63,346 nt of DNA from Roseisalinus antarcticus (GTDB lineage Bacteria > Pseudomonadota > Alphaproteobacteria > Rhodobacterales > Rhodobacteraceae), in contig NZ_FWFZ01000023.1 in assembly GCF_900172355.1 (NCBI RefSeq), positions 1 through 63,346 on the forward strand. Reading direction: 5' to 3'. The notes under the pieces are model-generated. The model had not been told where the DNA came from, searched no databases, and saw nothing but the letters and a program-made list of their open reading frames with translations. The position numbers and the translations under genes were made by a program. Shown one piece after another: positions 12,619-31,882 of the stretch (the first letter of the stretch is position 1; each line of letters opens with the position of its first letter).

Positions 12619-13626
12619 ATGGAATTCGGGATTTGCTTCAAGGGCTTCGTTGAACCCGAACGGGCCCGTGCGCTGGTGCGCCAGGCCGAGAACGCGGGCT
12701 TTACCTATTGCTGGTTCTACGATTCCCACATCCTCTGGCGGGAAAGCTTCATCGCCATGGCCATGTGCATGGAGCACACGACCAGGATGCGCTTCGGTCC
12801 CTGCGTGACGAACCCCAACACCCGCGACTGGTCGGTTGCGGCGTCGATGTTCGCTTCGCTGGCCAAACAGTCGGGCGGCCGCTTCGACATCGGCGTGGGC
12901 CGGGGGGATTCCGCGGTGCGGGTCATGGGCCTCAAACCCGCACCGCTGGCCCGGCTGGCCGAGTTCACCGACGTGGTGCGCAAGCTCTGCTCGGGGCAAG
13001 AGGCGCAATATGGCGAATGCCCGGCGCCGGTGCAGTTCTCCTGGGTGCCGGAAGGCGGCTGGGAGATGCCGATCTGGGTCGCGGCCTACGGGCCCAAGGC
13101 GCTGGCCACGGCCGGCGAGGTCGGCGACGGGCTGATCCTGCAGATCGCCGACCCGGGCATCTGCAAATGGCTGTCCGATCAGGCCAAGGAGGGCGGCGTC
13201 GCGGCCGGCAAGGACATGAGCGGATATCGGGTCATGTCCGCGGCCCCGGCCCACACCGGCCCGATCGAGGAGGGCCGCGAAAAGACCCGCTGGTTCCCCG
13301 CCATGGTCGGCAACCACGTGGCCGATATCGTCGAGAAATACGGCAAGGACACCGACCTGATGCCGCCGAGCCTGCTGTCCTATATCGAGAAGCGGCGCGG
13401 CTACGATTATTCCAAGCACGGCCAGAGCGACAATCCGTTCCTGGACTTCATCACCGACGACATCGTCGACAGCTTCGCCGTGCTCGGCCCGCCCGAGGCG
13501 CATATCGAGAAGCTGCACACGCTGAAGGCCGCCGGGGTGACGCAGTTCAACATCTACCTCGACAACGGCGACGAGGAAAAAATCATTGCCGACTACGGCA
13601 ATATCGTGATTCCCGCCTTCAACTGA
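12619..13626 (+). CDS. LLM-class, probably F420-dependent, oxidoreductase
   Basis: 335 aa luciferase-like TIM barrel related to methylene-tetrahydromethanopterin reductase (Mer) and the group annotated as F420-dependent oxidoreductase TIGR03842. Segments: MEFGICFKGFVEPERA, YDSHILWRESF, GPCVTNPNTRDW, GRFDIGVGRGDSAVRVMG and WVAAYGPKALATAGEVGDG. A clear AGGAGGG ribosome binding site (12604-12610) sets the ATG. The gene is divergent from the F420 operon and next to the XRE-cupin regulator. It probably uses F420H2 made by Fgd to reduce, or F420 to oxidise, an intermediate of the catabolic pathway. FMN dependence cannot be excluded, and the substrate is unknown. Confidence 0.85.
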   Translation: MEFGICFKGFVEPERARALVRQAENAGFTYCWFYDSHILWRESFIAMAMCMEHTTRMRFGPCVTNPNTRDWSVAASMFASLAKQSGGRFDIGVGRGDSAVRVMGLKPAPLARLAEFTDVVRKLCSGQEAQYGECPAPVQFSWVPEGGWEMPIWVAAYGPKALATAGEVGDGLILQIADPGICKWLSDQAKEGGVAAGKDMSGYRVMSAAPAHTGPIEEGREKTRWFPAMVGNHVADIVEKYGKDTDLMPPSLLSYIEKRRGYDYSKHGQSDNPFLDFITDDIVDSFAVLGPPEAHIEKLHTLKAAGVTQFNIYLDNGDEEKIIADYGNIVIPAFN

Positions 13627-13648
13627 CGGCCTCGCCCCACCGCCGCCG

Positions 13649-13673
13649 GCCCCCTGCGATCCCTCGCGGGGGC
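13649..13673 (+). terminator. Hairpin downstream of the LLM gene (possible terminator)
   Basis: GCCCCC-T-GCG (13649-13658), 6-nt loop, CGC-GGGGGC (13665-13673): nine pairs with one bulge, 23 nt after the stop. There is no U-tract, so factor-independent termination is uncertain. Confidence 0.4.
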
Positions 13674-13865
13674 GCGCAAGTTGCGACAGTTCGCCGACAA
13701 TCGCGCCGCCGGTGTCGCTAGCAATTTGCATCCCGCGGAAATTGTTTTAATGTGGATCACAAGGCCACCGGCCGAGTTTCCTGTTTGCGGGCACGGCCTC
13801 CCCTGCCCATCGCTATGCAGAAGATTTTTGGCAAAGAATTGATTTGTATAGAAAAAGGTCTGAGA

Positions 13866-14456
13866 ATGCCGAGTGAAATGGGGCCGCTCCAGCCGAGTGC
13901 GGCGGCGCAGAAGACGATCACCGTCATCGGAAAGCGCATTCGCGAGATGCGCAAGGACAAGGGCATGACCCTGTCGCAGCTCGCCGAGGCCTCGGGCCTC
14001 TCGTCCTCCATGCTGAGCCTCGTGGAACGCGGACTCGCCTCGCCGTCCATCGGCTCCCTGATCGTCGTCGCCGGGGCGCTGGGCCGCTCGATGTCCGACC
14101 TGCTCGAGACCGAGAGCCACGAATCCGACATCGTCGTGCGATCGGGCGATGTGACGCCGGTTCAGGCCCCGGGCGAGGTCATCCGCCGGGTGATGAAGGA
14201 AGACCGGGCCAACGGCGTCTCGATCGCGGTCAACGAATATGCGCCGCACACCTCGTCCAACGAATCCGCGCTCAGCCACGAGGGCTATGAATACGGGCTG
14301 CTGCTGGACGGGTCGCTGACGGTCGAGGTCGGTGGCGAAGCACATGTCATCGAGGCTGGCGACCTGATCTCCTACTCCTCGCGCCGGCCGCACCGGATCT
14401 ACAACCACACGGATCGGATGGCGCGGACGGTCTGGGTCAATACCGACCGGAGGTAG
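13866..14456 (+). CDS. XRE-cupin transcriptional regulator
   Basis: 196 aa. An N-terminal helix-turn-helix of the XRE/Cro type (IGKRIREMRKDKGMTLSQLAEA, then SGLSSSMLSLVERGLASPSI) occupies about residues 20-75. A C-terminal cupin domain follows (HEGYEYGLLLDGSLTVEVGGE, GDLISYSSRRPHRIYN), the PuuR-like layout in which the cupin senses a small molecule. It sits at the head of the catabolic island, between the LLM gene and the Mo-hydroxylase operon, so it is the likely pathway regulator. ATG 13866 is chosen; ATG 13815 upstream and 13878 downstream are in frame. The upstream DNA is AT-rich. The ligand is unknown. Confidence 0.88.
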   Translation: MPSEMGPLQPSAAAQKTITVIGKRIREMRKDKGMTLSQLAEASGLSSSMLSLVERGLASPSIGSLIVVAGALGRSMSDLLETESHESDIVVRSGDVTPVQAPGEVIRRVMKEDRANGVSIAVNEYAPHTSSNESALSHEGYEYGLLLDGSLTVEVGGEAHVIEAGDLISYSSRRPHRIYNHTDRMARTVWVNTDRR

Positions 14457-14465
14457 CCCGCGGGC

Positions 14466-14479
14466 GACCTCAATAAAAG
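14466..14479 (+). promoter_or_regulatory. Putative operator site 1 (upstream of the Mo-hydroxylase operon)
   Basis: GACCTCAATAAAAG fits the by-eye consensus RAYCTGRWTAAAWA seen upstream of four other island units, with two deviations. It is 141 nt upstream of the medium-subunit start, in the 164-nt gap after the regulator gene. Confidence 0.4.
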
Positions 14480-14620
14480 TTGACCACATTGAATAATCGC
14501 CCCGGCTGGCTGCACAAGGTTTGTGCTGCATCTTTACTTGTGCCCGGAGTTTCAATCTTTTTCCTTGATCGAGTCTCCGGCCCTGCCTAAGCCTGAACAA
14601 GAAGTTTGATAGGATTAAAG

Positions 14621-15493
14621 ATGAAGCCCGCCGCGTTCTCGTATCACCGCCCGGAAACCATCTCCGACGCGCTTGCCCTGCTGGCCGAGCATGGCGACGT
14701 CGGAAAGATCATCGCCGGGGGGCAGAGCCTGGTTCCGTCGATGAACTTTCGCCTGGCCCGCCCCGAGACCCTGATCGACATGAACGCCATCGCCGAGATC
14801 GCGGGCATCGAGGATCGCGGCGACACCCTGGTGATCGGCGCGATGACCCGGCACGCGGCGTTTCACACGCCGGTCTGCGATGGGCCGACGGGGGCGATGT
14901 TGACGCGTGTCGTCGGCAACATCGCCCATTACCCGATCCGCCAGCGCGGGACCTTCGGCGGGTCGCTCTGTCATGCCGATCCGGCAAGCGAATGGTGCCT
15001 CGTCGCGGCGACCTTCGATGCAGCGATGGAGATTCACGGCCAGGACGGCATGCGCGAGGTCGGCGCGGCGGATTTCTTCAAGGGCACCTTCACCACGGCG
15101 GTCGGGGGCGACGAGTTGCTGGCGCGGATCCATCTGCCGAAACTGCCCGAGGGCTGGGGCACGGGGTTCTACGAATTCTCCCGCCGCCGGGGCGATTTCG
15201 CGCTGGCGATGGCCGTGGCGGCCCTGAAGGTCGAGGGCGGCAAGATCGCCGATGCGCGGCTTGGCGTCGGCGCGGTCGCGGCCCATGGCCTGCGGCTCGA
15301 GACGCTGGAACAGGCCCTGACCGGGCAGCCGGCGACCGAAGAGACCATCGCCGAGGTCGCGGCACAGGTGCCGGGCCTCGTCAAGCCGAGCGGCGACATC
15401 CACGGCTCCGCCGAGTACCGCCGCGATCTGGCCCAGGCCGTGGTCCGCCGGGCGCTGAACGCGGCGCTCGCCGATTGCGCGGTGCCGGCATGA
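14621..15493 (+). CDS. Molybdenum hydroxylase FAD-binding (medium) subunit, CoxM-like
   Basis: 290 aa. FAD-binding PCMH fold with the family motifs AGGQSLVPSMNFRLARP (about residues 32-48) and IRQRGTFGGSLCHADPASEW (about 107-126), then a CO-dehydrogenase-flavoprotein C-terminal domain. It passes electrons from the [2Fe-2S] small subunit to FAD and on to an acceptor. AGGA at 14611-14614 supports ATG 14621. It is first in a coupled operon M-L1-S-L2, and its stop overlaps the L1 ATG. The acceptor and substrate are unknown. Confidence 0.92.
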   Translation: MKPAAFSYHRPETISDALALLAEHGDVGKIIAGGQSLVPSMNFRLARPETLIDMNAIAEIAGIEDRGDTLVIGAMTRHAAFHTPVCDGPTGAMLTRVVGNIAHYPIRQRGTFGGSLCHADPASEWCLVAATFDAAMEIHGQDGMREVGAADFFKGTFTTAVGGDELLARIHLPKLPEGWGTGFYEFSRRRGDFALAMAVAALKVEGGKIADARLGVGAVAAHGLRLETLEQALTGQPATEETIAEVAAQVPGLVKPSGDIHGSAEYRRDLAQAVVRRALNAALADCAVPA

Positions 15494-17820
15494 CCTGGGT
15501 CGGCCGCACGCTTCCCCGGCTGGAGGACCCGACCCTGCTGAAGGGCGGCGGCCGGTTCACCGCCGATCTGAAAGCCGGGGCCTGGGCGGTGAAATTCGTC
15601 CGCTCGCCCGAGGCTGCCGGCACGATTGTCGAGGTGGAGCGCCCGGACGAGGGCATCGTCTTCACCGCCGAAGACCTCGATGCCGCCGGCGTAGGCTCGA
15701 TCCAGGCGGTTCTAGACCGTCCCGACTATCGCCGGGTGCCGCACCCGGTCCTGGCCCGCGACCGGGTGGTCTTTGCCGGCCAGGCGGTGGCGCTGGTCGT
15801 CGCCCCGACCGAGGCAGAGGCGGAAGACCTGGCGGAACAGGTCTTCGTCGATATCGACACGGAGGACGCGGTGACCTCGATCGAGGCGGCGCTGGCCGAG
15901 GGCGCCCGCGACGTTCACCCGGAGGCGCCGGGCAACGTGATGGTCGAGGGCGTCATGCGAACCCCCGGGGTGGACGCGGCCTTTGACGCCGCGGCCTGCG
16001 TGGTCGAGCTGGACCTGTCCTCGGCCCGCCAGTCGGCGATGCCGATGGAGACCCGCGGCGGCGTGGCCGATTACGACCCGGCAACCGGGCGCGTCACCTT
16101 GTATGCCTCGGTGCAGATGCCGCACATGCTGCGCACCGGGCTGGCCGATGTGCTGGGCATCGACGAGGGCGACCTGCGCGTGGTCGCGCCGGATGTCGGC
16201 GGCGGGTTTGGGCAGAAGATGTCGCTCTTTCCCGAATACGTGGCGCTGGTCTGGACCGCCTTCCGCCTGCGCCGCAAGGTCGCCTGGATCGAGGACCGGC
16301 GCGAGAATTTCCTCTCCGCCTCCCATGCCCGCGACCAGCAATTCACCGTGCGCGGCGCCTTTGACGCCGAAGGGCGGCTGCTTGCGGTCGATGCCGACCT
16401 GCGCAGCAATGTCGGCGCCTTCTCCTGCTACCCGGTGACTTGCGGGGTGGAGCCGTTGATGGCCTTCGCCGAGCTGCCCGGTCCTTACGATTTCGCCGAA
16501 TACGGCGTGCGGTCCCGTGGCGTGACCACGAACCTGTCGATGATGGCCCCCTATCGGGGCGTCGCGCGGCCGATGCTGACCCTGTCGATGGAGCAGCTGA
16601 TGGACGCGGCGGCCGAAAAGCTGGACCTCGACCCGGTGGAGATCCGGCGGCGCAATCTCATCACCAGCTTCCCGCACACTTCGCCCACGGGGCTTGTCTA
16701 TGACGAGGCCTCGTATCTGGAGGCGATGGAGGCCGCCGTGACCTCCGCCGACATCCCCGGCTTTCGCGAGAGGCAGGCGGCGGCGCTGGCCGAGGGGCGG
16801 TATCTGGGGCTTGGCCTGTCGGTCTTTTCCGAGCGGACGGGCTATGGCACCCCGGCCTTTGCCGCCCGCAAGATGCAGATCGTCCCCGGCTACGAGACCG
16901 TGGATTGCGAGATGGGGCCCTCGGGCCAGGTAACGCTGCGGATCGGCGCCTCGCCCCACGGGCAGGGGCTCAAGACCGCGCTGGCGCAGCTTCTGGCCGA
17001 CCAGCTGGGCGTTGCGCCCGAGCGGATCCGCGTGATCTCCGGCGACACCGACGCGAGCCCCTACGGCTGGGGCACCTTCGCCAGCCGGTCGATGGTGATC
17101 TCGGGCGGGGCCAGCAAGATTGCCTCGGGGCAGCTCGCCGACAAGCTGCGCGCGATCGCCGGCGTCCTGCTGGAGGTCGATCCCTCGGGGGTCGAGCTGA
17201 AGGACGGGCTGGCGCTTGCGACCGGCACCAACAAGTCCCTGTCCATCGCCGAGGTCGCCCGCGCCGCCCACCACCAGAGCCACCGGTTCGAGGGGATGGC
17301 ACCGGGGCTGAAGGAACAGGCGTTCTATGACCCCTCCGGCACCTTCTCCAACGCCGCCCATGTCTGCGAGGTGGAGCTTGACCCCGAGACCTGCGGCGTC
17401 CGGATCACCCGGTTCCTCGTGGTCGAGGACGCGGGCCGGCTGATCAACCCGATGATCGTCGACGGCCAGATCGCGGGCGGCGTGGCGCAGGGCATCGCCA
17501 CCGCGCTCTACGAAGAGCTGGTGTTCGACGAATTCGGAACGATGCTGACCACCTCGCTGGCCGATTACCTGCCGCCCACCGCCGCCGAGATCCCGGATAT
17601 CGAAATTATCCACATGGAAACGATCTCTCCCCAGACGGTGACCGAGGCCAAGGGCGTCGGAGAGGGCGGCACCATCGGTGCGCCCGCCGCCGTCCTGTCC
17701 GCCCTGAACGATGCGCTGCGGCCCTTCGGCACGCGCATCACATCCATGCCGGCGACCCCGGACCGGATCGCCGCGGCGCTTCGGGCCGCGCGCACCGCCG
17801 CCGCCGAAGCCGAAGCCTGA
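15490..17820 (+). CDS. Molybdenum hydroxylase large (molybdopterin) subunit 1
   Basis: 776 aa, the normal length of a xanthine-oxidase-family large subunit. It opens with VGRTLPRLEDPTLLKGGGRF. Cofactor and active-site segments follow: AMPMETRGGVADYDP, PDVGGGFGQKM, APYRGVARP, GASPHGQGLKTALAQ and VGEGGTIGAPAAV, with the likely catalytic Glu at about residue 725. The active-site loop has no CoxL-type cysteine (AYRCSFR), so it is not a form I CO dehydrogenase. It would hydroxylate a carbon next to nitrogen or an aldehyde. Start overlaps the medium-subunit stop (ATGA). Confidence 0.92.
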   Translation: MTWVGRTLPRLEDPTLLKGGGRFTADLKAGAWAVKFVRSPEAAGTIVEVERPDEGIVFTAEDLDAAGVGSIQAVLDRPDYRRVPHPVLARDRVVFAGQAVALVVAPTEAEAEDLAEQVFVDIDTEDAVTSIEAALAEGARDVHPEAPGNVMVEGVMRTPGVDAAFDAAACVVELDLSSARQSAMPMETRGGVADYDPATGRVTLYASVQMPHMLRTGLADVLGIDEGDLRVVAPDVGGGFGQKMSLFPEYVALVWTAFRLRRKVAWIEDRRENFLSASHARDQQFTVRGAFDAEGRLLAVDADLRSNVGAFSCYPVTCGVEPLMAFAELPGPYDFAEYGVRSRGVTTNLSMMAPYRGVARPMLTLSMEQLMDAAAEKLDLDPVEIRRRNLITSFPHTSPTGLVYDEASYLEAMEAAVTSADIPGFRERQAAALAEGRYLGLGLSVFSERTGYGTPAFAARKMQIVPGYETVDCEMGPSGQVTLRIGASPHGQGLKTALAQLLADQLGVAPERIRVISGDTDASPYGWGTFASRSMVISGGASKIASGQLADKLRAIAGVLLEVDPSGVELKDGLALATGTNKSLSIAEVARAAHHQSHRFEGMAPGLKEQAFYDPSGTFSNAAHVCEVELDPETCGVRITRFLVVEDAGRLINPMIVDGQIAGGVAQGIATALYEELVFDEFGTMLTTSLADYLPPTAAEIPDIEIIHMETISPQTVTEAKGVGEGGTIGAPAAVLSALNDALRPFGTRITSMPATPDRIAAALRAARTAAAEAEA

Positions 17821-17831
17821 GAGGCCCTGAC

Positions 17832-18323
17832 ATGACCGAGACAACCACCGTCACCTTTACCCTCAACGGCGAAGAGCGCAGCCTGACGCTCGAGCCGCGC
17901 CAGAACCTGGCCGACACGATCCGCGACACCTGCGGGCTGACCGGCACCCATGTGGGCTGCGAACACGGCGTCTGCGGCGCCTGCACCGTGCTGATGGACG
18001 GCAAGGCCGTGCGGTCCTGCCTGACCTTCGCCGTCCAGGCCCAGGGCGCCGAGATCGAGACCGTCGAGAGCCTCGCCGACGGCGACACCCTGCACCCGCT
18101 GCAACAGGCCTTCTGGGAGCTGCACGGCCTGCAATGCGGTTTTTGCACGCCCGGCTTCCTGATGCTGGCCGCCGGGGCCCTGCGCGAGAATCCGGACATG
18201 TCCGACGACGAGATGCGCGACCTGCTGAGCTCCAACCTCTGCCGCTGCACCGGCTACCAGAACATCGTAAAGGCGGCGCGGCAGGCCGCCGAGGTGATGC
18301 GCGGCGAGAGGGCCGAGGCGTGA
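17832..18323 (+). CDS. Molybdenum hydroxylase [2Fe-2S] small subunit
   Basis: 163 aa. The plant-type cluster is built by C43, C48, C51 and C63 (CEHGVCGACTV...C) and the second cluster by C102, C105, C137 and C139 (CGFC...CRC). This is the complete eight-cysteine set of the family. It carries electrons from the molybdenum site to the FAD subunit. It lies 11 nt after large subunit 1, and its stop overlaps the GTG start of large subunit 2, so it may serve both catalytic subunits. Confidence 0.95.
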   Translation: MTETTTVTFTLNGEERSLTLEPRQNLADTIRDTCGLTGTHVGCEHGVCGACTVLMDGKAVRSCLTFAVQAQGAEIETVESLADGDTLHPLQQAFWELHGLQCGFCTPGFLMLAAGALRENPDMSDDEMRDLLSSNLCRCTGYQNIVKAARQAAEVMRGERAEA

Positions 18324-20602
18324 CCGACGCCCCTGCCGATCTTGCCAACGCCAATGCCATCGGCCGCAGCCTGCGCCGGATCGAGGACCGGCCGCTGCTG
18401 ACCGGGCAGGCCGCCTTTGCCGCCGATCTCAGGGTCGAGGGCCAGGTGCATATGCGCGTCGTCCGCTCTCCGGTCGCCTTCGGGCGGATCACCGAGATCG
18501 ACGTGGACGAGGCGCTGGAGCTGCCCGGGGTGATCGCGGTCTGGACCCATGCGGATGTCGCCGCCCTGCCGCAGATCGACTTTCGCATGACCAGGATCGA
18601 GGGGCTTGGCCCCTACCGGCAATGGGTGCTGGCCCGCGACTTTGTCCGCTATGTCGGAGAGCCGATGGCCGTGGTCTTTGCCGAGACCGGGTTTGCCGCC
18701 GAGGATGCGGCGGACCTGATCTTTGCCGAGATCGACGAGCTGGACGCGCATCTTTCGGCCACCGCCGACCCGGTCGAGGTCTATCCCGGGGTCGAGACCG
18801 GGCTGCTGTCCGAACCCGCCGTCATCCGCAAGGGGGCGGGCGATGTCGATGCCGCCTTCGCCGCCGCCGACCGGGTGGTGGAGCTCGAGGTCGCCGTTGG
18901 CCGCCACACCGGCGTCCCGCTGGAGACGCGCGGCGCACTCGCGCAACATGACCCCGACAGCGACGTGGTCACGATGATGGGCGCGGCGAAGGTGCCCCAT
19001 TACAACCGCGGCGCCATCGCCACCATGCTGGGCCTGCCCACCGACAAGGTGCAATTGTCCGAACAGCACGTGGGCGGCGGCTTCGGCATCCGCGGCGAGC
19101 TTTACCCCGAGGACGTGCTGGTCTGTCACGCGGCGCGGGTGCTGGGGCGCCCGATCCGCTGGATCGAGGACCGCAAGGAGCATCTTCTGGCCGCCAACCA
19201 CTCGCGCGACCAGGCCTATCGGCTGCGGGCCGCGGTGGATCCAGAGGGTGTGATCCTTGGCCTCGACGCGGCGTTCTACACCGACCAGGGGGCTTATGTC
19301 CGGACCCATGGCGGAACCGTGACCGACCTCGCGGCGGCGATGCTGCCCGGGCCCTACCGAATCCCGGCCTACCGGGTCGCGGGCCATATCCGGCTGACGA
19401 ACAAGACCCCCGCCGGCACCTATCGCGCCCCGGGACGGTTCGAGAGCACCTTCGCCCGCGAGCGCCTGATGGACGAGATCGCCGACCAGTGCGGGCTGTC
19501 GCGGTCCGAGGTCCGGCGCCGGAACCTGATTCCGGAGGCGGCAATGCCCTTCGACCGGCAGATCGACACGCTGGGCACGCACCTGGTCTATGACAGCGGC
19601 AAATACGCCGACCTGCTGGAGCGGTTCCGCACCATGCTGGACCTGGACCGGACCGAGGACGCGCTCGCCGAACGCCGGGACGCGGGCGAGATGGCGGGCT
19701 GCGGGCTGGGATTCTTCGTCGAGAAATCCGGCCTCGGCCCCGATGACCTTGTGCGGCTGCACCTCTCCGGGGATGGCACGATCCGCATCGTGACCGGGGT
19801 GGCGAGCGTGGGCCAGGGGGTCGAGACGACGCTGGCCCAGGTCTGCGCCGGTACGCTGGGCATCGGGATCGACGGGATCGAGGTGATCCACGGCCAGACC
19901 TCGCTGATCGAGAAGGGCATGGGCGCCTTCGCCACCCGGGTGACGGTGATGGCCGGTTCCGCGGTCAAGATCGCGGCCGAGGCGCTGATCGCCAAGGCGA
20001 CCGAGGCGGCGGCAAAGGCGCTGGGCGCCGACCCCGCCGATCTGACGTTCGACGCGGGCCGGGTCTCGGGCCCGTCCGGTGCGCTGACCCTCGCCGAGGC
20101 AGCGCAGGCCGCGGGCGGAGAGATCGTGGCCGAGGGCCTCTTCGAAACCACCCACATGACCTATCCCTACGGCATCCATTTCGCCCAGGTCAGCGTCGAC
20201 CCCGAGACCTGCGGCGTCACGATCGAACGCTATGCCGTGGCTTATGACATCGGCCGCATGGTGAACCCGATGCTGGTCGAGGGGCAGCTTGTCGGCGCCG
20301 TGGCCCAGGGGGTCGGCGGCGCCCTGCTGGAGGAATTCGTCTATGACGAGGCCGGCCAGCCCCTGGCCACCTCGCTCGCCGACTACCTGATGCCCACCGC
20401 GATGGAGATGCCGGAGGTGGAGCTTCTGATTCGCGAGGACGCGCCGAGCCCGATCAACCCGCTGGGGGTCAAGGGCGCGGGCGAAGGCGGGATCAACGGC
20501 GCGGGCGCCGCCCTGGCCGGAGCTGTCTCGCAGGCGCTGGGCCGCCGGGTCGATCGGCTGCCGATGACGCCCGAACGGATCTATCGCTGGATTCGCGGCT
20601 GA
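18320..20602 (+). CDS. Molybdenum hydroxylase large (molybdopterin) subunit 2
   Basis: 760 aa, clearly paralogous to, but distinct from, large subunit 1. It opens with IGRSLRRIEDRPLLTGQAAFAAD. Motifs: GVPLETRGALAQHDP, HVGGGFGIRGELYPED, GTYRAPGRFESTF, GVASVGQGVETTLAQV and VKGAGEGGINGAG, with the likely catalytic Glu at about residue 722. The GTG start overlaps the small-subunit stop. There is no second medium or small subunit in the island, so it probably shares those of subunit 1 or forms an alternative holoenzyme with another substrate. Both copies appear intact. Confidence 0.9.
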   Translation: MTDAPADLANANAIGRSLRRIEDRPLLTGQAAFAADLRVEGQVHMRVVRSPVAFGRITEIDVDEALELPGVIAVWTHADVAALPQIDFRMTRIEGLGPYRQWVLARDFVRYVGEPMAVVFAETGFAAEDAADLIFAEIDELDAHLSATADPVEVYPGVETGLLSEPAVIRKGAGDVDAAFAAADRVVELEVAVGRHTGVPLETRGALAQHDPDSDVVTMMGAAKVPHYNRGAIATMLGLPTDKVQLSEQHVGGGFGIRGELYPEDVLVCHAARVLGRPIRWIEDRKEHLLAANHSRDQAYRLRAAVDPEGVILGLDAAFYTDQGAYVRTHGGTVTDLAAAMLPGPYRIPAYRVAGHIRLTNKTPAGTYRAPGRFESTFARERLMDEIADQCGLSRSEVRRRNLIPEAAMPFDRQIDTLGTHLVYDSGKYADLLERFRTMLDLDRTEDALAERRDAGEMAGCGLGFFVEKSGLGPDDLVRLHLSGDGTIRIVTGVASVGQGVETTLAQVCAGTLGIGIDGIEVIHGQTSLIEKGMGAFATRVTVMAGSAVKIAAEALIAKATEAAAKALGADPADLTFDAGRVSGPSGALTLAEAAQAAGGEIVAEGLFETTHMTYPYGIHFAQVSVDPETCGVTIERYAVAYDIGRMVNPMLVEGQLVGAVAQGVGGALLEEFVYDEAGQPLATSLADYLMPTAMEMPEVELLIREDAPSPINPLGVKGAGEGGINGAGAALAGAVSQALGRRVDRLPMTPERIYRWIRG

Positions 20603-20688
20603 CCGGCAGCGCCGGTGCCGAAATCTTGGGCACCGGCCACCCTGAACGGCTTCGACGGCCCGTTCTCAGAAAAAACCGCGAGAAAAAG

Positions 20689-20718
20689 TTGATCTGATTA
20701 AATATCTTTGCATAATAT
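20689..20718 (+). promoter_or_regulatory. Promoter with putative operator site 2 (cupin-nitrilase-coxG unit)
   Basis: TTGATC (20689-20694) and TAATAT (20713-20718), 18 bp apart, look like -35 and -10 boxes. The motif GATCTGATTAAATA (20691-20704) overlaps the -35 box and fits the island consensus RAYCTGRWTAAAWA exactly. The ATG of the cupin gene is 28 nt after the -10 box. Confidence 0.5.
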
Positions 20719-24086: not shown

Positions 24087-24099
24087 GGGGGGGCCTGTC

Positions 24100-25050: not shown

Positions 25051-25798
25051 TGTGCGCGATGTCCGGCTGAGCTATGGCGGCGTCCACGCCGTGAATGGCG
25101 TGTCGCTCGATGTCCAGGAAGGCGAGATCGTCGGCCTGATCGGCACCAACGGGGCCGGCAAGACCTCCCTGTTCAATGTGATCACCGGCTTCACCCGGGG
25201 CGACGCGGGCACGATCCGCTTCCTCGACAACCAGATCGAGGGCAGCAGCCCGGCGGCGATCGCCGCTTCGGGCATGGTGCGGACCTTCCAGACCCCGATC
25301 GGCTTTCCCAAGATGACGGTGCTCGAGAACATGCTGGTGTTCTCGCACAAGGAGCGGTCCGAACGGCGCAAGCTGCTGGGCGGGGCACGCCCCGACAAGG
25401 CGCTGATCGCCGACGCGCTCGAGATCCTCGCCGAGTTCCGCCTCGACGGCCGGGCGGATATCTGGGTGCAGGACCTGTCCGCGCCCGAGATGAAGATGCT
25501 CGAATTCGCCCGCGCCATGATGGCGCGGCCCAAGCTCATGCTGCTGGACGAACCCGCCGCGGGCGTGAATCCGGCGCTCATGGAAAACCTTGAAGGCCAT
25601 ATCCGCAGTCTGCGGGACCGTGGCGTGACCTTCCTGGTGGTGGATCACAACCTCAGGTTCATCTCGGCGGTGTGCGAGCGCACCTACGCGATGGCCGACG
25701 GCAAGGTGATCGCCGACGGGCCGACCTCGGACGTGATCGCCGATCCAGAGGTCATTCGCCTCTACATCGGGACGGGGCCGGGAGAAGCCGCTGCCTGA
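25043..25798 (+). CDS. ABC transporter ATP-binding protein (LivG-like)
   Basis: 251 aa. Walker A GTNGAGKTSLFN, an atypical signature region VQDLSAPEMKMLEFARAM in place of LSGGQ, Walker B LMLLDEPAAGVNP and the H-loop VVDHNL. Degenerate signatures occur in some LivG proteins, and the partner LivF keeps a canonical one. It hydrolyses ATP on the cytosolic side of the LivHM channel. Overlaps livM by 8 nt. Confidence 0.92.
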   Translation: MLDVRDVRLSYGGVHAVNGVSLDVQEGEIVGLIGTNGAGKTSLFNVITGFTRGDAGTIRFLDNQIEGSSPAAIAASGMVRTFQTPIGFPKMTVLENMLVFSHKERSERRKLLGGARPDKALIADALEILAEFRLDGRADIWVQDLSAPEMKMLEFARAMMARPKLMLLDEPAAGVNPALMENLEGHIRSLRDRGVTFLVVDHNLRFISAVCERTYAMADGKVIADGPTSDVIADPEVIRLYIGTGPGEAAA

Positions 25799-25845
25799 GA
25801 CACGACCACGACGCACCCACCAAACTTCCAATAGGAGACGAAACC

Positions 25846-27087
25846 ATGCTGACTGCTTCACGTCGCGCCACATTGGCACTGCTTGCCGCAACCGCCCTCG
25901 CCCCTCTCTCGGTGGCCGCCCAGGACGGTGAGCCGATCAAGATGGGCCTGCTCGTCGGGTTCACCGGCGACATGGGCCCCTGGGCCCCCGCGCTCAACAA
26001 CGCGGCTATTCTCGCCGTCGAAGAGATCAACGAGGCCGGCGGCATCCTCGGCCACCCGGTCGAGCTTATCTCCGAAGACAACACCTCGACCGTGGACGGC
26101 GCCATGCGCGGCGCGACCCGGCTGGTCAATGTCGAGGGCGTGCCGGTCATCATCGGGCCCGAGTCCGACCCGATCGTCGCCCTGCGGTCCTTTGCCGTCG
26201 ACAACCAGGTGCCAATCATCTCGACCTCGGCCGGCACCGAGGCCCTGAACGAGGCCGGGGGCACCGGCACCTACATCTACCGCACCAACGCCTCCGACAG
26301 CTTCCTCGGCGTGGTGCATGCCAAGATGCTGCTGGACGAGATGGACCAGTCGGAAATCATCATGGTCGTCGAAAACCTCGAAGGCACGACCTCCGCCGCC
26401 AACACCTTCAAGGCCGCCTACGAGCGCCTTGGCGGCACGATCATCGACGAGGTGGTCCTCGCGCCCGGTCAGACCAACTATCAGTCCGAAGTGCGGACCG
26501 TGGCGGGCTACGAGCCCGACATGATCTTCCTCGCCACCGGCCAGACCACCGGCGTGGCCTTCGTGCGCCAGGCCTACCAGCGCGGCTACGACTGGGATTA
26601 CTGGGTCACGGCCGAGCTTCAGTCCCCCGACTTCGTCGATGCCGCAGGCGTCGAGATCGTCGCCGGCGCCCTGAACCCGGTGTCGAGCCAGGTCGAGGAC
26701 AGCGAAAGCTGGGGCCGGTTCTCTGCCGCCTATTCGGCGCGGTTCGACGAGGCGCCGGAGCCCGGGTTCTACCAGGCCGAAACCTATGACGCCTTCATGG
26801 TCGCGGCGCTGGCGATGGTCGCCGGTGGCGAGGCCACCGGTGCGGCGGTCGACGCCAACCTGACCGAGGTGGCGACGCCCGGAGGGACCGAGGTGATCTC
26901 CTTCGCCGACGGTGTGGCCGCGCTCGAGGCCGGGGAAGAGATCAACTATGAGGGCGCGTCCGGCTCGATCAACTTCAACGAGTACGGCAACGTGACGATC
27001 CCCGCCACGCGGCTGCTGCAGATCTCCGAGGACGGCACCTGGGAGACAATCATGATGGTGGACAGCACCGAGTTCCCGGCGAACTGA
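25846..27087 (+). CDS. Periplasmic substrate-binding protein of the ABC importer
   Basis: 413 aa. Signal peptide MLTASRRATLALLAATALAP-type followed by an Ala-rich region and cleavage near LSVAAQD. The mature part is a Leu/Ile/Val-binding-type (type I periplasmic) fold: KMGLLVGFTGDMGPWAP, INEAGGILGHPVELI, IIGPESDPIVALRSFA. It captures the ligand and delivers it to LivHM. AGGAG upstream of ATG 25846. The ligand pocket cannot be read by eye; the cluster suggests an aromatic or heterocyclic acid or amide rather than an amino acid. Confidence 0.92.
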   Translation: MLTASRRATLALLAATALAPLSVAAQDGEPIKMGLLVGFTGDMGPWAPALNNAAILAVEEINEAGGILGHPVELISEDNTSTVDGAMRGATRLVNVEGVPVIIGPESDPIVALRSFAVDNQVPIISTSAGTEALNEAGGTGTYIYRTNASDSFLGVVHAKMLLDEMDQSEIIMVVENLEGTTSAANTFKAAYERLGGTIIDEVVLAPGQTNYQSEVRTVAGYEPDMIFLATGQTTGVAFVRQAYQRGYDWDYWVTAELQSPDFVDAAGVEIVAGALNPVSSQVEDSESWGRFSAAYSARFDEAPEPGFYQAETYDAFMVAALAMVAGGEATGAAVDANLTEVATPGGTEVISFADGVAALEAGEEINYEGASGSINFNEYGNVTIPATRLLQISEDGTWETIMMVDSTEFPAN

Positions 27088-27105
27088 TCCCGGCAAACCC
27101 CCGCG

Positions 27106-27136
27106 AAGGTCCGGCCCGTCAGCGGGTCGGGCCTTT
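27106..27136 (+). terminator. Hairpin after the binding-protein gene (terminator or attenuator)
   Basis: AAGGTCCGGCCCG (27106-27118) pairs with CGGGTCGGGCCTT (27123-27135), loop TCAG, two mismatches, followed by a short T run. It lies between the binding-protein gene and livF. Such hairpins often end most transcripts after the highly expressed binding protein and let a few through to the ATPase gene. Confidence 0.5.
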
Positions 27137-27170
27137 GCCCCGATAGATACCCCAAGGCGGAGTGACGCTC

Positions 27171-27884
27171 ATGGCACCGATCCTCTCAATCGAAGGTCTG
27201 ACGGCCGGCTACGGCAAGCTGCCGGTGCTGCACGACGTGTCGCTGGCGCTGGAACAGGGCCGGATGCTGTCGATCATCGGGCCGAACGGCGCGGGCAAGA
27301 CGACACTCACCCGCGCGATCTGCGGCCAGTGCACGGTGATGTCCGGCGCGATCCGCTATGACGGGCGCGACATCGCCGGCTGGCCGGGGCAGGAGATCGC
27401 CCGCGCGGGCATCGGCTACGTCCCCCAGAGCAACAATGTGTTCAGGGCGCTGACGGTCGAGGAGAACCTCGAGATGTCGTCCCTGCTGATGGAACGCGCC
27501 GCGCAGAAGGCCGCGATCGAGGCCGCCTATGCCCGTTTCCCCCGCCTGACCGAGCGGCGGCGTCAGGTCGGCGCGTCCCTCTCGGGCGGCGAGCGGCAGA
27601 TGCTGGCGATTGCCTCGGCGTTGCTGTCCGAGCCGCGGCTGCTGATCCTCGACGAGCCGGTGTCCGGCCTGGCGCCGTCGATGACGGACGAGGTGGCGCA
27701 CAGTATCTCGCAGATCGCCAAGAGCGGCGTGACCGTGGTCTGGGTCGCGGAAGAGAACCCGCAGATGATCATCGGCCTGTCCGACGAGGTCGTGGTCATG
27801 ACCACCGGGACCATCAAGCTGCACCAATCCGCGCAGGAGATGCTGGCGGCAGAGAACTTCCGCGAGATCTTCCTTGGCATCTAG
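27171..27884 (+). CDS. ABC transporter ATP-binding protein (LivF-like)
   Basis: 237 aa. Walker A GPNGAGKTTLTR, Q-loop YVPQSNNVF, signature SLSGGERQMLAIASAL, Walker B LLILDEPVSGLAP and switch region VVWVAEENP in place of the usual His-containing loop. It is the second ATPase of the LivHMGF importer. ATG 27171 is chosen over the GTG at 27162 because of spacing from AAGGCGGAG. It is separated from the binding-protein gene by 83 nt with a hairpin. Confidence 0.92.
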   Translation: MAPILSIEGLTAGYGKLPVLHDVSLALEQGRMLSIIGPNGAGKTTLTRAICGQCTVMSGAIRYDGRDIAGWPGQEIARAGIGYVPQSNNVFRALTVEENLEMSSLLMERAAQKAAIEAAYARFPRLTERRRQVGASLSGGERQMLAIASALLSEPRLLILDEPVSGLAPSMTDEVAHSISQIAKSGVTVVWVAEENPQMIIGLSDEVVVMTTGTIKLHQSAQEMLAAENFREIFLGI

Positions 27885-27900
27885 ATGGCGCGAAATTTTC

Positions 27901-27914
27901 ATCCGGATTAAATA
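27901..27914 (+). promoter_or_regulatory. Putative operator site 4 (upstream of the Rieske oxygenase unit)
   Basis: ATCCGGATTAAATA matches the island motif RAYCTGRWTAAAWA with two deviations. It lies 453 nt upstream of the Rieske oxygenase start, directly after livF, so a long leader would be implied. Confidence 0.35.
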
Positions 27915-28366
27915 AATCGAGCAAAAATGCCGCATAAATTCAAGAATTGATTGACGGCGGCGGCCAGCCTCTGGAAAGATGATCGAGAAACGGGGCCGTT
28001 TGTCCCGATGCGAACCACGAGGATCCTGACCGTGATCGAGCTGATCCGAAACCGCATTGATGCCGTCGCCGTCCTGCGGTGCGCCATCTCTGCCGGGCCG
28101 GTTGGCGATCGCAGGCCAGCTCCGTGCGCCGATGCCGAGGTGCAGGCGCTGGCTGATGGAAGCGACGGCGACCCTCCTGCCTGCCGCTGCTGATCCCGGC
28201 AGGGGCCAGGGCGCCGGTCCTGACCGGCCATGCGCCAGCGTTCCCTGTCGATCCATCCGCCGCAGAGGCCCCGGGCGGGCCTGCTGGATGACATATATGT
28301 CCCCGATCCGCGACCGACACCGCGCCGCAAGGATCGACCCCATGCCCGATGCCAAAGGAGCCCACC
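27915..28366. other. Long untranslated region upstream of the Rieske oxygenase
   Basis: About 450 nt without a convincing gene. Short frames on both strands have no recognisable product. The first 60 nt are AT-rich (promoter-like), and the rest is GC-rich. It may be a long leader or the decayed remains of a gene. Confidence 0.4.
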
Positions 28367-29359
28367 ATGCTCGATGTCTTGCGCAAGTACTGGAATCCCG
28401 TCGCCCGCAGCGAAGAGATCACCCCCACCCCCACCCGCCACATGATGCTCGGAGAGCAGCTGGTCCTCTGGCGGACCTCCGACAGCGGCACGGTCAGCGT
28501 GATGAAGGACCTCTGCATCCATCGCGGCGCGGCGCTGTCGGGCGGCCGGGTGGAGGGCGAAAACATTGTCTGCCCCTATCACGGCTGGCGCTATGGCGCC
28601 GACGGCGCCTGCACCCATATCCCGTCGCTGCCCGAGGGCTCTCCGATCCCGGCCAAGGCCCGCACCACGACCTATCCCGTGCGCGAGGCCTATGGCCTGA
28701 TCTGGGTCGCGCAGGACGATGACCCGGCACCGTTCCCGGATTTCCTCGATGCCTACGAGTCCGACCCCGCCTTTCGCATGTGCTATGTCAGCCATTACGA
28801 CTGGGCGACCTCGGCCGGGCGCGTGCTGGAAAACGCGATGGATTTCTCGCATTTCAACTTCGTCCACAAGGGCTACACCGAGCTTGCGGACGGCCCCGTC
28901 ATCAAGCCCTACGAGGTCAAACGCTCGGACCGCGGCTTTACCTATGCCTATGACGATGGGCACCTGGTGCGGGACTACACCGTGGAGTTTCCGTTCATCG
29001 TCCACGACCGCAAGAGCGTGACCAACCCCGAGGGCGGCAAGACCTGGTCCGACGACGGCGAGAGCAAGGCCGGGGACTGCACCCTTCTGACCTTCATCGC
29101 CGCGCCGGTCGACGAGGCGACGACCCGGATTCACGTGCTGGTGTCGCGCAATCACGGGCTGAATCGGCCCGACGAGGATTTCACCAGCGGCTTCGACGTG
29201 GTGATGAACCAGGACAAGGTCATCGTCGAAAGCCAGCGCCCCGAGCAGATCCCCATGGACCTCAAGGAGGAACTGCACCTGCGGATGCCCGACGCCCACG
29301 CCGTGCTGTATCGCCGGATGCTGCGCGAGATCGACCTGCCCGAGGGCTACATGCCATGA
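28367..29359 (+). CDS. Rieske non-heme iron oxygenase, large subunit (vanillate demethylase-like)
   Basis: 330 aa. The Rieske [2Fe-2S] site is C50-x-H52 and C69-xx-H72 (CIHRGAALSGG, CPYHGW). The mononuclear iron site is D160, H163 and H168 (MDFSHFNFVHKG). Length and layout fit the VanA / caffeine-demethylase branch, which uses O2 and electrons from a reductase to hydroxylate or O/N-demethylate aromatic and heterocyclic compounds. AAAGGAG six nt before ATG 28367 fixes the start. Its stop overlaps the reductase ATG. It is the only O2-activating iron enzyme in the island. Confidence 0.93.
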   Translation: MLDVLRKYWNPVARSEEITPTPTRHMMLGEQLVLWRTSDSGTVSVMKDLCIHRGAALSGGRVEGENIVCPYHGWRYGADGACTHIPSLPEGSPIPAKARTTTYPVREAYGLIWVAQDDDPAPFPDFLDAYESDPAFRMCYVSHYDWATSAGRVLENAMDFSHFNFVHKGYTELADGPVIKPYEVKRSDRGFTYAYDDGHLVRDYTVEFPFIVHDRKSVTNPEGGKTWSDDGESKAGDCTLLTFIAAPVDEATTRIHVLVSRNHGLNRPDEDFTSGFDVVMNQDKVIVESQRPEQIPMDLKEELHLRMPDAHAVLYRRMLREIDLPEGYMP

Positions 29360-30309
29360 CCGAGCCCACGGTCGACCTGCGGGTCGCGGCGGTGGCGCAG
29401 GTCGGCGGGGATGTGCGCTGCTTCACGCTCTGTCCCGCGGTGGAAGGGGCGGCGCTGCCCGGCTTCACCGCCGGGGCGCATATCTCGCTGCACCTGCCGT
29501 CGGGGCTGGTGCGGGATTATTCGCTGTGCTCCGATCCGGGGGAGGCCGGACATTGGCAGATCGCGGTAAAGCGCGAGGCCGAGGGCCGCGGCGGGTCGAT
29601 CGAGGTGCATGACCGGCTGGAGGTGGGCGAGACCCTGACTGCGAGCCACCCCCGCAACACCTTCGCCCTGCCGGACGGCGACGGGCCGTTGCTGCTGCTG
29701 TCCGGCGGGATCGGGATCACGCCGATCCTGTCGATGATCCCCGCGTTGCGTCGCGCCGGCCGGCGTTTTCGGCTGATCCACCTGGTGCGCGATGCGGCCG
29801 ACGTCCCCTTTGCCGATCGGATGGTCCCGACCGGCGACGAGGACATGATGATCTGTCCGCGCGGCGGTGCGCGGTTCCCCGTGGGCGCGGCGCTGGCCGG
29901 GCTCGGGCCCGACTGGTCGGTCCAGTGCTGCGGCCCGATGTCCCTGATCGAAGCGGCCGAGCGCCAGGCCGCGGCGCTGAACTGGGCCCCCGGCCGTCTG
30001 CGCCGCGAGGTGTTCCGGGCCGAGGACGTGGCCCCGCGTGACGGCGACGCGCCGATCCGGGTCACCATCGCCTCCACCGGCCAGGTGGTGCAGGTGGCCG
30101 CCGACAAGACGATCCTCGACGCCCTGCTGGGCGCGGGCGTGGATGTGCCGTTCAGTTGCGAGGAAGGCACCTGCGGCACCTGCATCACCCGCGTGCTGGA
30201 CGGCGACCCTGACCACCGGGACATGGTTCTGATGCCTCACGAAAAGGCAGATCACATCACCGTCTGCTGTTCCCGGGCGAAATCGGCGGCCCTGACGCTC
30301 GAATTATGA
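29356..30309 (+). CDS. Rieske oxygenase reductase (FMN/NADH and [2Fe-2S], VanB-like)
   Basis: 317 aa of phthalate-dioxygenase-reductase type. A flavin-binding barrel (HLPSGLVRDYSLCSD), an NAD domain (LLLSGGIGITPILSMI, CCGPMSLIEA) and a C-terminal plant-type ferredoxin (CEEGTCGTC...VCC) appear in that order. It takes electrons from NAD(P)H and feeds the Rieske oxygenase encoded immediately upstream (ATGA overlap). Confidence 0.93.
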   Translation: MTEPTVDLRVAAVAQVGGDVRCFTLCPAVEGAALPGFTAGAHISLHLPSGLVRDYSLCSDPGEAGHWQIAVKREAEGRGGSIEVHDRLEVGETLTASHPRNTFALPDGDGPLLLLSGGIGITPILSMIPALRRAGRRFRLIHLVRDAADVPFADRMVPTGDEDMMICPRGGARFPVGAALAGLGPDWSVQCCGPMSLIEAAERQAAALNWAPGRLRREVFRAEDVAPRDGDAPIRVTIASTGQVVQVAADKTILDALLGAGVDVPFSCEEGTCGTCITRVLDGDPDHRDMVLMPHEKADHITVCCSRAKSAALTLEL

Positions 30310-30311
30310 AT

Positions 30312-30358
30312 TTGACAGTTGTCAATCAACCGCGAATAATTTTTAATCTGGTTAAATA
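30312..30358 (+). promoter_or_regulatory. Strong sigma70-like promoter with putative operator site 5 (cyclase unit)
   Basis: TTGACA (30312-30317) and AATAAT (30335-30340) are spaced by 17 bp, the best promoter match in the island. AATCTGGTTAAATA (30345-30358), a copy of the island motif with one mismatch (G at position 8 region tolerated by R), lies just downstream, where a repressor would cover the transcription start. The cyclase ATG is 44 nt further on. Confidence 0.55.
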
Positions 30359-30402
30359 GTCCGATGCCGGGCTAGTGACATGCAAGCAAAAGGATCCGGT
30401 CC

Positions 30403-31251
30403 ATGAAGATCACAGACATGACCCATCTGATGAACGCGCACACCCCCGGTTGGGTGGGCTATGCGGGCAACAAGATGTATTATGCCCAGAACCTGCAGAC
30501 CAAGCAGATCGTGGCCCAGCGCATCGACGTGGCCCTGCACACCGGCACCCATATCGACGGCGCCATGCACGGCACCGACGGCATGGGCGACATGGCCTCC
30601 TACCCGATGGATTTCCTGGTCGGCCCGGGCGCCGTCGTCGATGTCAGCGAGCATATGGAGGATTGGGCCGTCATCACGCCGGAGATGATCGAAAGCGCCC
30701 CGGTCGAGGTCAAGGAAGGCGATATCCTGATCCTGCACACCGGCTGGCACCGCTACTGGGAAGGCCGCGACCAGCAGGATCTCGTCCGCTATTTCTGCAT
30801 GCACCCGGGCGGCAAGATCGAGCTTCTGGAGTGGATGCTGGACAAGAAGATCAAGTGGTTCGGGATTGATGCGGGGTCGGGCGACCACGCCATGAACACC
30901 TCGATCCGCCACATGCGCCCCGACATCGCCAAGCGGTTCGAGCAGAAGGTGGGCATGACCTGCGACGAGTTCTTCGGCGATTATTCCTTCACCCACCACA
31001 AATCCGGCCGCGAAGTGGTCGAGAACATCTTTCCGTTCCATGCCTACGGGTTCGACCGCGGCCTGATCCACGCCGAGAACGTCGGCGGCGACATCGAACT
31101 GTGCCTGAACAAGCGCGGCGTGATCGGCGCCTTCCCCTGGCGCTATGACGGGCTCGAGGCCAGCCCCTGCCGGATCCTTCTGATGGAAGGCATCGACGAA
31201 TCCGTCGAGGCGGTGGGCGACGTGGCGAAGGCAATCTTCGACCGGCGCTGA
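30403..31251 (+). CDS. Cyclase-family metal-dependent hydrolase (isatin hydrolase / kynurenine formamidase-like)
   Basis: 282 aa. The family metal site HTGTHIDGAMH (H46, H50, D52, H56) is intact, and LILHTGWHRYW and WFGIDAGSGDHAMNT follow. Characterised relatives hydrolyse amides and lactams such as isatin or N-formylkynurenine with Mn or Zn. In this island it is a good candidate for opening a cyclic amide produced by the hydroxylases. It has its own promoter at 30312. The precise substrate is unknown. Confidence 0.88.
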   Translation: MKITDMTHLMNAHTPGWVGYAGNKMYYAQNLQTKQIVAQRIDVALHTGTHIDGAMHGTDGMGDMASYPMDFLVGPGAVVDVSEHMEDWAVITPEMIESAPVEVKEGDILILHTGWHRYWEGRDQQDLVRYFCMHPGGKIELLEWMLDKKIKWFGIDAGSGDHAMNTSIRHMRPDIAKRFEQKVGMTCDEFFGDYSFTHHKSGREVVENIFPFHAYGFDRGLIHAENVGGDIELCLNKRGVIGAFPWRYDGLEASPCRILLMEGIDESVEAVGDVAKAIFDRR

Positions 31252-31348
31252 CTCTCCCACAGCAGCCCGGACGAAGCCCTCGCGGCGAAGAGCGGTCTGG
31301 CCGGTAGCTCCCGCCGGTCAGGCCGTCGTCTTGTGTGAAAGGATGCCC

Positions 31349-31882
31349 ATGCTGATCGGCGCCCGCCCCGGCGAGATGACCTCGCAACAGCAAGCTTTGC
31401 ACGATGCCATCGCCAGCGGCCCGCGCGGCGGGGTGCCGCTTCCGTTCCTGGCGATGCTGGACAGCCCCGGGCTGTGCGATGCGATCCAGGGGGTGGGCGA
31501 GACGATCCGCTACCGCACCACAATGACCGACCGTCAGCGCGAGATCGCGATCCTCGCGGCCGCCGCCGCCTGCGGGTCGGGCTATGAATGGGGCTATCAC
31601 GATGCGCTCGCGGTCAAGGCCGGGATGACCCCCGCCGAGCGCACCGCCGTCCTTGACGGCAGCGGCGCGGGTCTGCGGCCCGGCGAGGGCGCCATGGTCC
31701 GCTATATCCGCATCGCCGTGCACGAGCGGCGGGCGGACGCCGCGGAACTGGCCGATATCACCGCAACCCTGGGCCGCGAGATCGCCACCGAGGCGACGGC
31801 CATCGCGGGCTATTACCCCCTGCTGGCGCTGTTCCTAGGCGCGGGCGGGCTGGACGAGCCCCTGCCCGCCAGCATCGCCTGA
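31349..31882 (+). CDS. Carboxymuconolactone decarboxylase-like (AhpD-fold) protein
   Basis: 177 aa all-helical protein of the CMD/AhpD fold: RYRTTMTDRQREIAILAAAAACGSGYEWGYH. The AhpD redox pair CxxC is not present; one Cys (CGSGYEWGYHD) lies in the family His/Glu segment instead, as in CMD-like proteins of unknown function. GAAAGG before ATG 31349 sets the start. It is the last plus-strand gene of the island, 97 nt after the cyclase, and probably acts on a ring-opened acid or deals with peroxide. Role uncertain. Confidence 0.75.
   Translation: MLIGARPGEMTSQQQALHDAIASGPRGGVPLPFLAMLDSPGLCDAIQGVGETIRYRTTMTDRQREIAILAAAAACGSGYEWGYHDALAVKAGMTPAERTAVLDGSGAGLRPGEGAMVRYIRIAVHERRADAAELADITATLGREIATEATAIAGYYPLLALFLGAGGLDEPLPASIA

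Follow-up and report, generated by a model that had tools for sequence, protein, structure and literature searches.

A conserved, apparently co-regulated catabolic island in Roseisalinus antarcticus and the F420 module that lies within it

Does coenzyme F420 take part in a catabolic pathway of Roseisalinus antarcticus, or do its genes only lie beside that pathway? The question arises from a 63,346-nt stretch of contig NZ_FWFZ01000023.1 (referred to in the following as the window; G+C content 0.67), in which a row of catabolic genes, the island, meets an F420 operon and a gene for an LLM oxidoreductase. A first-pass annotation of positions 12619-31882 had proposed a single F420-linked catabolic pathway for an N-heterocyclic or amide-type substrate, with the LLM enzyme as one of its parts. 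Our analysis supports the catabolic genes as a co-inherited and co-regulated set, but not the LLM enzyme as a member of it. The island is apparently a conserved, co-regulated degradation pathway for a nitrogen compound, and the window probably holds two interleaved units: a conserved regulon for the catabolism of an N-heterocycle or amide, and an F420 module within it.

Pfam and NCBIfam searches found every gene family named in the annotation on the forward strand of its interval, as it had stated; the order of four genes was corrected to orfX, cupin, CN hydrolase, CoxG. An OYE-family gene outside that interval is also a member of the island regulon. The genes of the island are as follows.

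5268-6512, minus strand: OYE-family flavin oxidoreductase (PF00724, E = 6.5e-69), following cofE on the same strand
13752-14456, plus strand: XRE-cupin regulator, longest open reading frame (Pfam HTH_3 and Cupin_2)
14606-15493, plus strand: FAD subunit (M, MoM) of a molybdenum (Mo) hydroxylase, longest open reading frame (Pfam FAD_binding_5 and CO_deh_flav_C)
15490-17820, plus strand: Mo hydroxylase large subunit L1 (Pfam MoCoBD_1/2; GVGEGG motif)
17832-18323, plus strand: Mo hydroxylase [2Fe-2S] subunit S (Pfam Fer2 and Fer2_2; both Cys motifs)
18320-20602, plus strand: Mo hydroxylase large subunit L2 (nearest solved protein 6-hydroxypseudooxynicotine dehydrogenase)
20708-21151, plus strand: orfX, small cupin-like protein
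21148-21564, plus strand: cupB, cupin (Pfam Cupin_2)
21564-22406, plus strand: CN hydrolase of the amidase/carbamoylase type (Pfam CN_hydrolase, E = 1.9e-45)
22428-23042, plus strand: CoxG-like protein (Pfam COXG, E = 4.6e-17)
23193-27884, plus strand: LivH, LivM, LivG, substrate-binding protein (SBP) and LivF (Pfam)
28349-29359, plus strand: Rieske oxygenase of the VanA/NdmA group (Pfam Rieske and VanA_C)
29356-30309, plus strand: VanB-type Rieske reductase (Pfam Fer2 and FAD_binding_6)
30403-31251, plus strand: cyclase-family metal hydrolase (PF04199, E = 1.2e-28; metal motif HTGTHIDGAMH)
31331-31882, plus strand: CMD-family protein (PF02627, E = 1.3e-7)

The Mo hydroxylase genes encode M, S and L subunits with two [2Fe-2S], FAD and Mo domains, which places the enzyme in the three-component type, and the GEGG motif is kept in both large subunits. 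The CN hydrolase keeps the catalytic-region motifs PE, HYRKL and CYDLR, and the Rieske oxygenase keeps both the Rieske motif and the mononuclear-iron motif D..H....H. In the CMD protein, a motif check found EW..H and no AhpD peroxidase pattern C..C...H. Of the two cupins reported earlier, cupB is confirmed by its Cupin_2 match; the other, orfX, has no Pfam match of its own, and its relative at locus L066 scores 27.0 bits against Cupin_2, marginally below the 27.2 cutoff. The island genes are not a chance reading, since their metal, catalytic and Rieske motifs are conserved and other genomes have the gene set as well.

To see the island in other genomes, an alignment of the window and Rhodococcus ruber cyclases was used to search species genomes. 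Of the 129 relatives that this search confirmed, the best 80 were retained. The loci, stored with flanks of at most 10 kb, were scored with tblastn at a minimum of 38% identity and half of the query covered, and a locus with three or more of a chosen set of seven genes (MoL1, MoL2, orfX, cupB, CN hydrolase, CoxG and XRE-cupin) was called an island locus. This was the case at 29 of the 80 loci; at the other 51, few or none of these genes accompany the cyclase. The XRE-cupin gene was found at 27 of the 29 island loci, cupB at 24, MoM and MoL2 at 23 each, MoS and orfX at 22 each, MoL1 at 21, CN hydrolase at 19, CoxG at 17, Rieske oxygenase at 10, CMD at 7, LivG and LivF at 6 each, LivH, LivM and SBP at 5 each, and OYE and the reductase at 4 each; the counts of the seven chosen genes are inflated by the selection, and the short flanks depress all counts. 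Twenty-two of the 29 loci are from Alphaproteobacteria, including Methylobacterium, Bradyrhizobium, Bosea, Chelatococcus and Bauldia, and seven are from Actinobacteria.

Longer extracts from Pseudogemmobacter humi (cyclase 92%) and Bauldia litoralis contain the island from MoM to CMD. In B. litoralis, OYE follows directly after CMD, and no OYE gene was found in the P. humi extracts. OYE orthologs also lie beside island genes at L071 (63%), L101 (59%), L121 (47%) and L122 (46%), as well as at L140, L143 and L150, and the Liv transporter genes are 60-75% identical at five island loci (L045, L046, L047, L056 and L071). On the basis of the co-location counts and the P. humi and Bauldia layouts, the island is one conserved unit, with OYE as an optional member. 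A conjugative plasmid of R. ruber has the Rieske oxygenase, reductase, cupin, CN hydrolase, cyclase and CMD genes in one run, and the 48 kb inspected include no gene annotated as Mo hydroxylase, LLM or cof. The block flanking that run (L043, 3522-16664) encodes two DUF1116 proteins, a formate dehydrogenase and malate synthase G.

We then looked at regulation. Spacers of the window have an AT-rich palindrome in common. To avoid circularity, the motif was learnt from relatives only, with the window sequence kept out of the training; 91 upstream regions converged on the palindrome TTTTAATnnnATTAAAA at four widths. When the window was scanned with this motif, the best sites lay upstream of cyclase, MoM, orfX, LivH, Rieske oxygenase and OYE. 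Compared with 104 control spacers from other loci, these six spacers were equalled by 0-2 controls per width, with one exception: at widths 19 and 21, 9 of the 104 controls equalled the spacer between XRE-cupin and MoM as cut, since its site extends beyond the spacer end. A hold-out motif, for which the closest relatives were excluded, was built from 49 regions upstream of MoM, XRE-cupin and orfX; its likelihood gain was 262, versus 33-49 in three shuffled sets. Among the 63,328 window positions scored with it, the ten best (eight distinct sites) were all at island promoters, namely those of cyclase, MoM, OYE, orfX, LivH, Rieske oxygenase and XRE-cupin, and the eleventh, at 46259, is unrelated to the island. 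The predicted operators are listed here.

6611-6629: upstream of OYE; rank 3 of 63,328 with the hold-out motif, 0-2 of 104 controls as high, by width
13837-13855: before XRE-cupin, weaker; E per window 1.35 at width 15 and 0.13-0.34 at widths 17-21; hold-out rank 7; equalled by 2-8 of 104 controls
14603-14621: Mo hydroxylase operon; hold-out rank 2
20686-20724: two sites before orfX, at 20686 and 20706; found in the window and hold-out scans
23060-23078: transporter operon; found in both scans
27896-27914: Rieske operon; found in both scans
30340-30358: cyclase operon; best site in the window in both scans

Since the XRE-cupin gene is present at nearly all island loci, its product is the putative binder of the motif, and the site in front of the gene is predicted to serve autoregulation. 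From the position of that site, we propose that the protein starts at 13866 (13866-14456) instead of 13752. For MoM, the ATG at 14621, which abuts the predicted operator, is a likelier start than 14606, and the true start of orfX is probably downstream of its predicted operator. In the relatives (width 15), the operator was found before 18 of 20 XRE-cupin, 14 of 21 MoM, 12 of 20 orfX and 3 of 4 LivH genes. The catabolic unit combines identified genes, conserved co-location and a common operator-like motif.

The F420 module consists of an operon, outside the interval annotated earlier, and the LLM gene divergent from it.

6686-7438, minus strand: cofE, F420-0:glutamate ligase (TIGR01916, 264.5 bits; cutoff 180.65)
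7435-8439, minus strand: fgd (TIGR03554, 475.5 bits; cutoff 420)
8451-10775, minus strand: fused cofGH, FO synthase (NF006687, 1089.8 bits; cutoff 1018)
10775-11413, minus strand: cofC (TIGR03552, 147.5 bits; cutoff 105)
11410-12414, minus strand: cofD (TIGR01819, 286.6 bits; cutoff 257.45)
12619-13626, plus strand: LLM oxidoreductase (TIGR03842, 482.1 bits; cutoff 295.45)

The operon cofD-cofC-cofGH-fgd-cofE is complete, comprising biosynthesis and Fgd, with every gene above its curated NCBIfam cutoff. It resembles other alphaproteobacterial fgd-type F420 operons: Fgd orthologs at 65-70% occur in eight other genomes of a 385-genome draw from the class, and cofGH is 58-61% identical in other Alphaproteobacteria. 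Actinobacterial Fgd is more distant, at about 57-60% among the matches listed (15 of 20). Unlike the window, the eight alphaproteobacterial fgd extracts (12-20 kb each) yielded no OYE gene, TIGR03842 ortholog or island. Two of these extracts, both from one alphaproteobacterial genus (L169 and L171), have another Mo hydroxylase (S 43-44%, L 31%) in the vicinity of cofGH and fgd.

The nearest solved proteins to the LLM are F420-dependent Mer enzymes, and together with the complete cof operon next to it this suggests, indirectly, that the enzyme uses F420 rather than FMN. The LLM superfamily also includes FMN monooxygenases, so that the F420 neighbours might be incidental. However, FMN-type families match the window protein only far below cutoff, whereas its TIGR03842 score is well above, and cof or Fno genes adjoin LLM in 10 of 13 extracts compared (L040, L041, L125-L132 and L156-L158). 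An FMN-dependent monooxygenase is therefore very improbable.

Does this module belong to the island? The divergent cofD/LLM promoter region (12415-12618) has no island operator: its best site ranked 31 with the hold-out motif, and 9-18 of the 104 controls did equally well, by motif width. The F420 module sits between two regulon members without the regulon's motif. In the stored flanks of the 80 cyclase loci, no LLM and no cof gene was found. This count alone would be unfair, since in the window some 17 kb separate the LLM gene from the cyclase, and whole genomes were therefore searched, with LLM orthologs accepted at E <= 1e-50. Of the 29 other island genomes, 3 (2/12 and 1/17) have an ortholog, and in all three it is on a separate contig from the island; in two, the cyclase and LLM contig numbers differ, and in the third, the LLM contig is 9,753 and the island contig 20,174 bases long. 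P. humi and B. litoralis carry the island without an LLM ortholog (best E 2.2e-8 and 3.4e-4), and searches of 12 island genomes for an LLM ortholog and for PreA found neither in 8.

Most likely, the F420 link is a juxtaposition in this genome, leaving a functional link with a minority chance. The first-pass annotation had named separate, independently conserved pathways in relatives as the outcome that would speak against it. For the F420 genes this is what we found, whereas the rest of the set holds together. A single F420-linked pathway was rejected as the principal interpretation after the conservation analysis, the whole-genome LLM search and the operator scan.

What, then, might the LLM enzyme do? 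Orthologs at 72-79% identity are found in Paracoccus alcaliphilus, on ten Leisingera plasmids and in further Alphaproteobacteria. On the one Leisingera plasmid inspected, the order is cofG-cofH-cofD-cofC-cofE-Fno-LLM, and opposite this run are genes for an NCS1 nucleobase symporter, dihydropyrimidinase (HydA), a Zn hydrolase, an aminotransferase and the transhydrogenase PntAB. At L128 and L129, LLM is followed by the Zn hydrolase (68-70%) and then HydA (68%); near the LLM of L126 there are only distant hydantoinase-like (30%) and Zn-hydrolase-like (32%) genes. Two genomes that have PreA (G568 and G659) carry a second HydA, 94% and 89% identical to that of Leisingera, besides the ordinary one. 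In a tree of the family, drawn open, the window LLM grouped with the HydA-linked LLMs with support of 81/100, and the inner branches are mostly unresolved. The authors of the TIGR03842 model reportedly remarked on a tie of the family to hydantoinase genes.

The company that the orthologs keep, F420/Fno genes and in some clusters also genes for dihydropyrimidinase and a Zn hydrolase, makes it most likely that the window LLM reduces a pyrimidine-type ring with F420H2. The neighbours at Leisingera, L128 and L129, and the symporter in the Leisingera cluster, recall the reductive pyrimidine pathway (PreTA/PydA, dihydropyrimidinase and ureidopropionase), with the differences that an F420H2 enzyme would replace the NAD(P)H enzyme and that no close HydA and no PreA were found in the R. 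antarcticus genome. Among the matches listed in the open-licence literature, we found no paper on TIGR03842 as a pyrimidine reductase, no assay of such an activity, and no paper on the island gene set, in line with the annotation's remark that it recognised no published pathway with these genes. In a report on Chloroflexota uric acid clusters (PMC12507026), the authors propose that a putative F420-dependent yanthine reductase of the LLM family replaces a flavoenzyme in reductive N-ring breakdown; that system belongs to another phylum and another cluster, and the likeness noted here is membership of the LLM family.

If TIGR03842 LLMs reduce pyrimidine-type rings with F420H2, which would be a reason why some Proteobacteria make F420, the window's copy might have been inserted in the regulon to form one F420-linked pathway after all. 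The Mo enzyme would produce an oxo-heterocycle, the LLM would use F420H2 from Fgd to reduce its ring, the cyclase would open the ring instead of dihydropyrimidinase, and the CN hydrolase would act as the ureidopropionase. The two island genes flanking the F420 operon and LLM, the enrichment of LLM in island genomes, the failure to find HydA and PreA orthologs in this genome, and the similarity of the CN hydrolase to carbamoylputrescine amidase and to a protein deposited as nitrilase/beta-ureidopropionase are all consistent with such a scheme. On the other hand, no LLM ortholog was found in 26 of the 29 other island genomes, the remaining three have it on a separate contig, neither LLM nor PreA turned up in 8 of 12 genomes tested, and the cofD/LLM promoter is without the operator. 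We consider both the insertion and the resulting pathway doubtful, and prefer the reading of two interleaved units.

Several observations weigh against that reading or parts of it. The F420 operon does sit within the island, between OYE and the XRE-cupin regulator. The LLM gene is mildly enriched in island-bearing Alphaproteobacteria (3/22 versus a class rate of 5/384; Fisher 0.0065, or 0.046 if two sister metagenome-assembled genomes count once), and some of the extracts are drafts, in which contig breaks can conceal neighbours. In the relatives, the operator (width 15) was found at only 2 of 20 cyclase, 1 of 5 Rieske and 0 of 1 OYE genes, so the window's sites at these genes are mostly its own; XRE-cupin and orfX have a common spacer in the relatives and are thus not independent. 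As for the LLM, HydA of at least 60% identity is near it in only 3 of the 13 extracts, the reference cluster included. Its usual partner is missing in R. antarcticus, since the genome yielded neither a close HydA (best 34%; none at E <= 1e-120) nor PreA (no match above cutoff). A mutual exclusion of PreA and LLM seemed striking at first, PreA being absent in 9 of 11 LLM genomes versus 2 of 21 LLM-less genomes (Fisher 9e-5). However, all 21 of the latter are from one family, within which PreA is present in 2 of 4 LLM genomes versus 19 of 21, and other LLM-less genomes are mostly without PreA too (present in 1/2 and 1/8). This argument was dropped as largely confounded by taxonomy.

The likely chemistry of the island can be approached through its closest known enzymes. 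The nearest solved relatives of L2 are 6-hydroxypseudooxynicotine dehydrogenase (7.7e-175) and then quinoline 2-oxidoreductase (2.3e-118). The window enzyme shares with these the M, S and L subunits and the cofactor motifs, but its gene row has two complete large subunits per one M and one S, and it is tied to the cyclase and CN hydrolase rather than to nicotine genes. A four-subunit 3-hydroxypyridine dehydrogenase is also known. The Rieske oxygenase is nearest to SxtT (2.3e-41) and then to the methylxanthine demethylase NdmA (1.3e-38), and the CN hydrolase further resembles archaeal nitrilases. The cyclase, which had been called isatin-hydrolase-like, deserves that name only at the level of the fold: it belongs to PF04199, has the HxGTHxDxxxH motif, and its model (mean pLDDT 67.6, a low value that permits use for the fold only) matches the isatin hydrolase/kynurenine formamidase structures 4m8d, 4j0n and 4co9, to which the 282-residue protein is only 15-18% identical.

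The relatives of L2, the Rieske oxygenase, the CN hydrolase and the cyclase lead us to propose that the ring is hydroxylated, that an N-demethylation or a second hydroxylation takes place, and that the ring is opened and ammonia released; both the order of these steps and the substrate class are inferred. Under control of the XRE-cupin regulator, the substrate would be taken up by LivHMGF and its binding protein, and the Mo enzyme would hydroxylate the nitrogen ring. The two large subunits may use M and S jointly, allowing two successive hydroxylations. The Rieske oxygenase and reductase would carry out an N-demethylation or hydroxylation, the cyclase-family hydrolase would open the ring, the CN hydrolase would free ammonia, and OYE, CMD and the cupins would presumably act in later steps. 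The other unit, cofD-cofC-cofGH-fgd-cofE with the divergent LLM, lies between OYE and the remaining genes and lacks their operator.

Alternatively, the substrate might not be an N-heterocycle: the Mo enzyme could oxidise an aldehyde or aryl compound, with the CN hydrolase, cyclase and Rieske oxygenase acting on an amide or lactone side chain. The NCBIfam models nearest to the Mo subunits are those of glyceraldehyde dehydrogenase and CO dehydrogenase, all below cutoff, and lactones are also among the substrates of the CMD and cyclase families. The nearest solved relatives of L2, however, hydroxylate N-heterocycles, and those of the Rieske protein, SxtT and NdmA, also argue against such a substrate, which we consider unlikely. 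Genes for BMP/PnrA-type ABC transporters near the island at seven loci (L071, L046, L047, L050, L054, L060 and L110) are a suggestive hint of a nucleoside- or purine-like substrate. Ten representatives of the distant cyclase loci were scanned for a substrate clue, and none followed; five had Pfam matches nearby, to an NMT1-type binding protein, TauE, an ABC permease, SDR and alpha/beta hydrolase families.

Outside the two units, the window has a sul1 RNA motif at 34351-34406 on the minus strand (Rfam RF03058, 74.6 bits; gathering threshold 36.2), directly upstream of a SulP-family transporter gene (32781-34277, minus strand). A DprE1-like FAD oxidase at 1531-3165 on the plus strand (NF053785, 418 bits, below the 500-bit cutoff) is near a UDP-glucose dehydrogenase gene (4080-5252), and an IS5-family transposase remnant (100-846; NF033579, 31.5 bits, below cutoff) marks the left end.

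The regulon with its operator-like motif spans Alphaproteobacteria and Actinobacteria, and the motif could be used as a reporter in screening N-heterocycles. A 2021 review of F420 (PMC8498797) gives as an open question why Proteobacteria make F420, and states that experimental work on bacterial F420-dependent reductases had by that year not gone beyond the Actinobacteria. For the proteobacterial question, the gene neighbours of TIGR03842 point to a specific answer: the reduction of pyrimidine-type rings.

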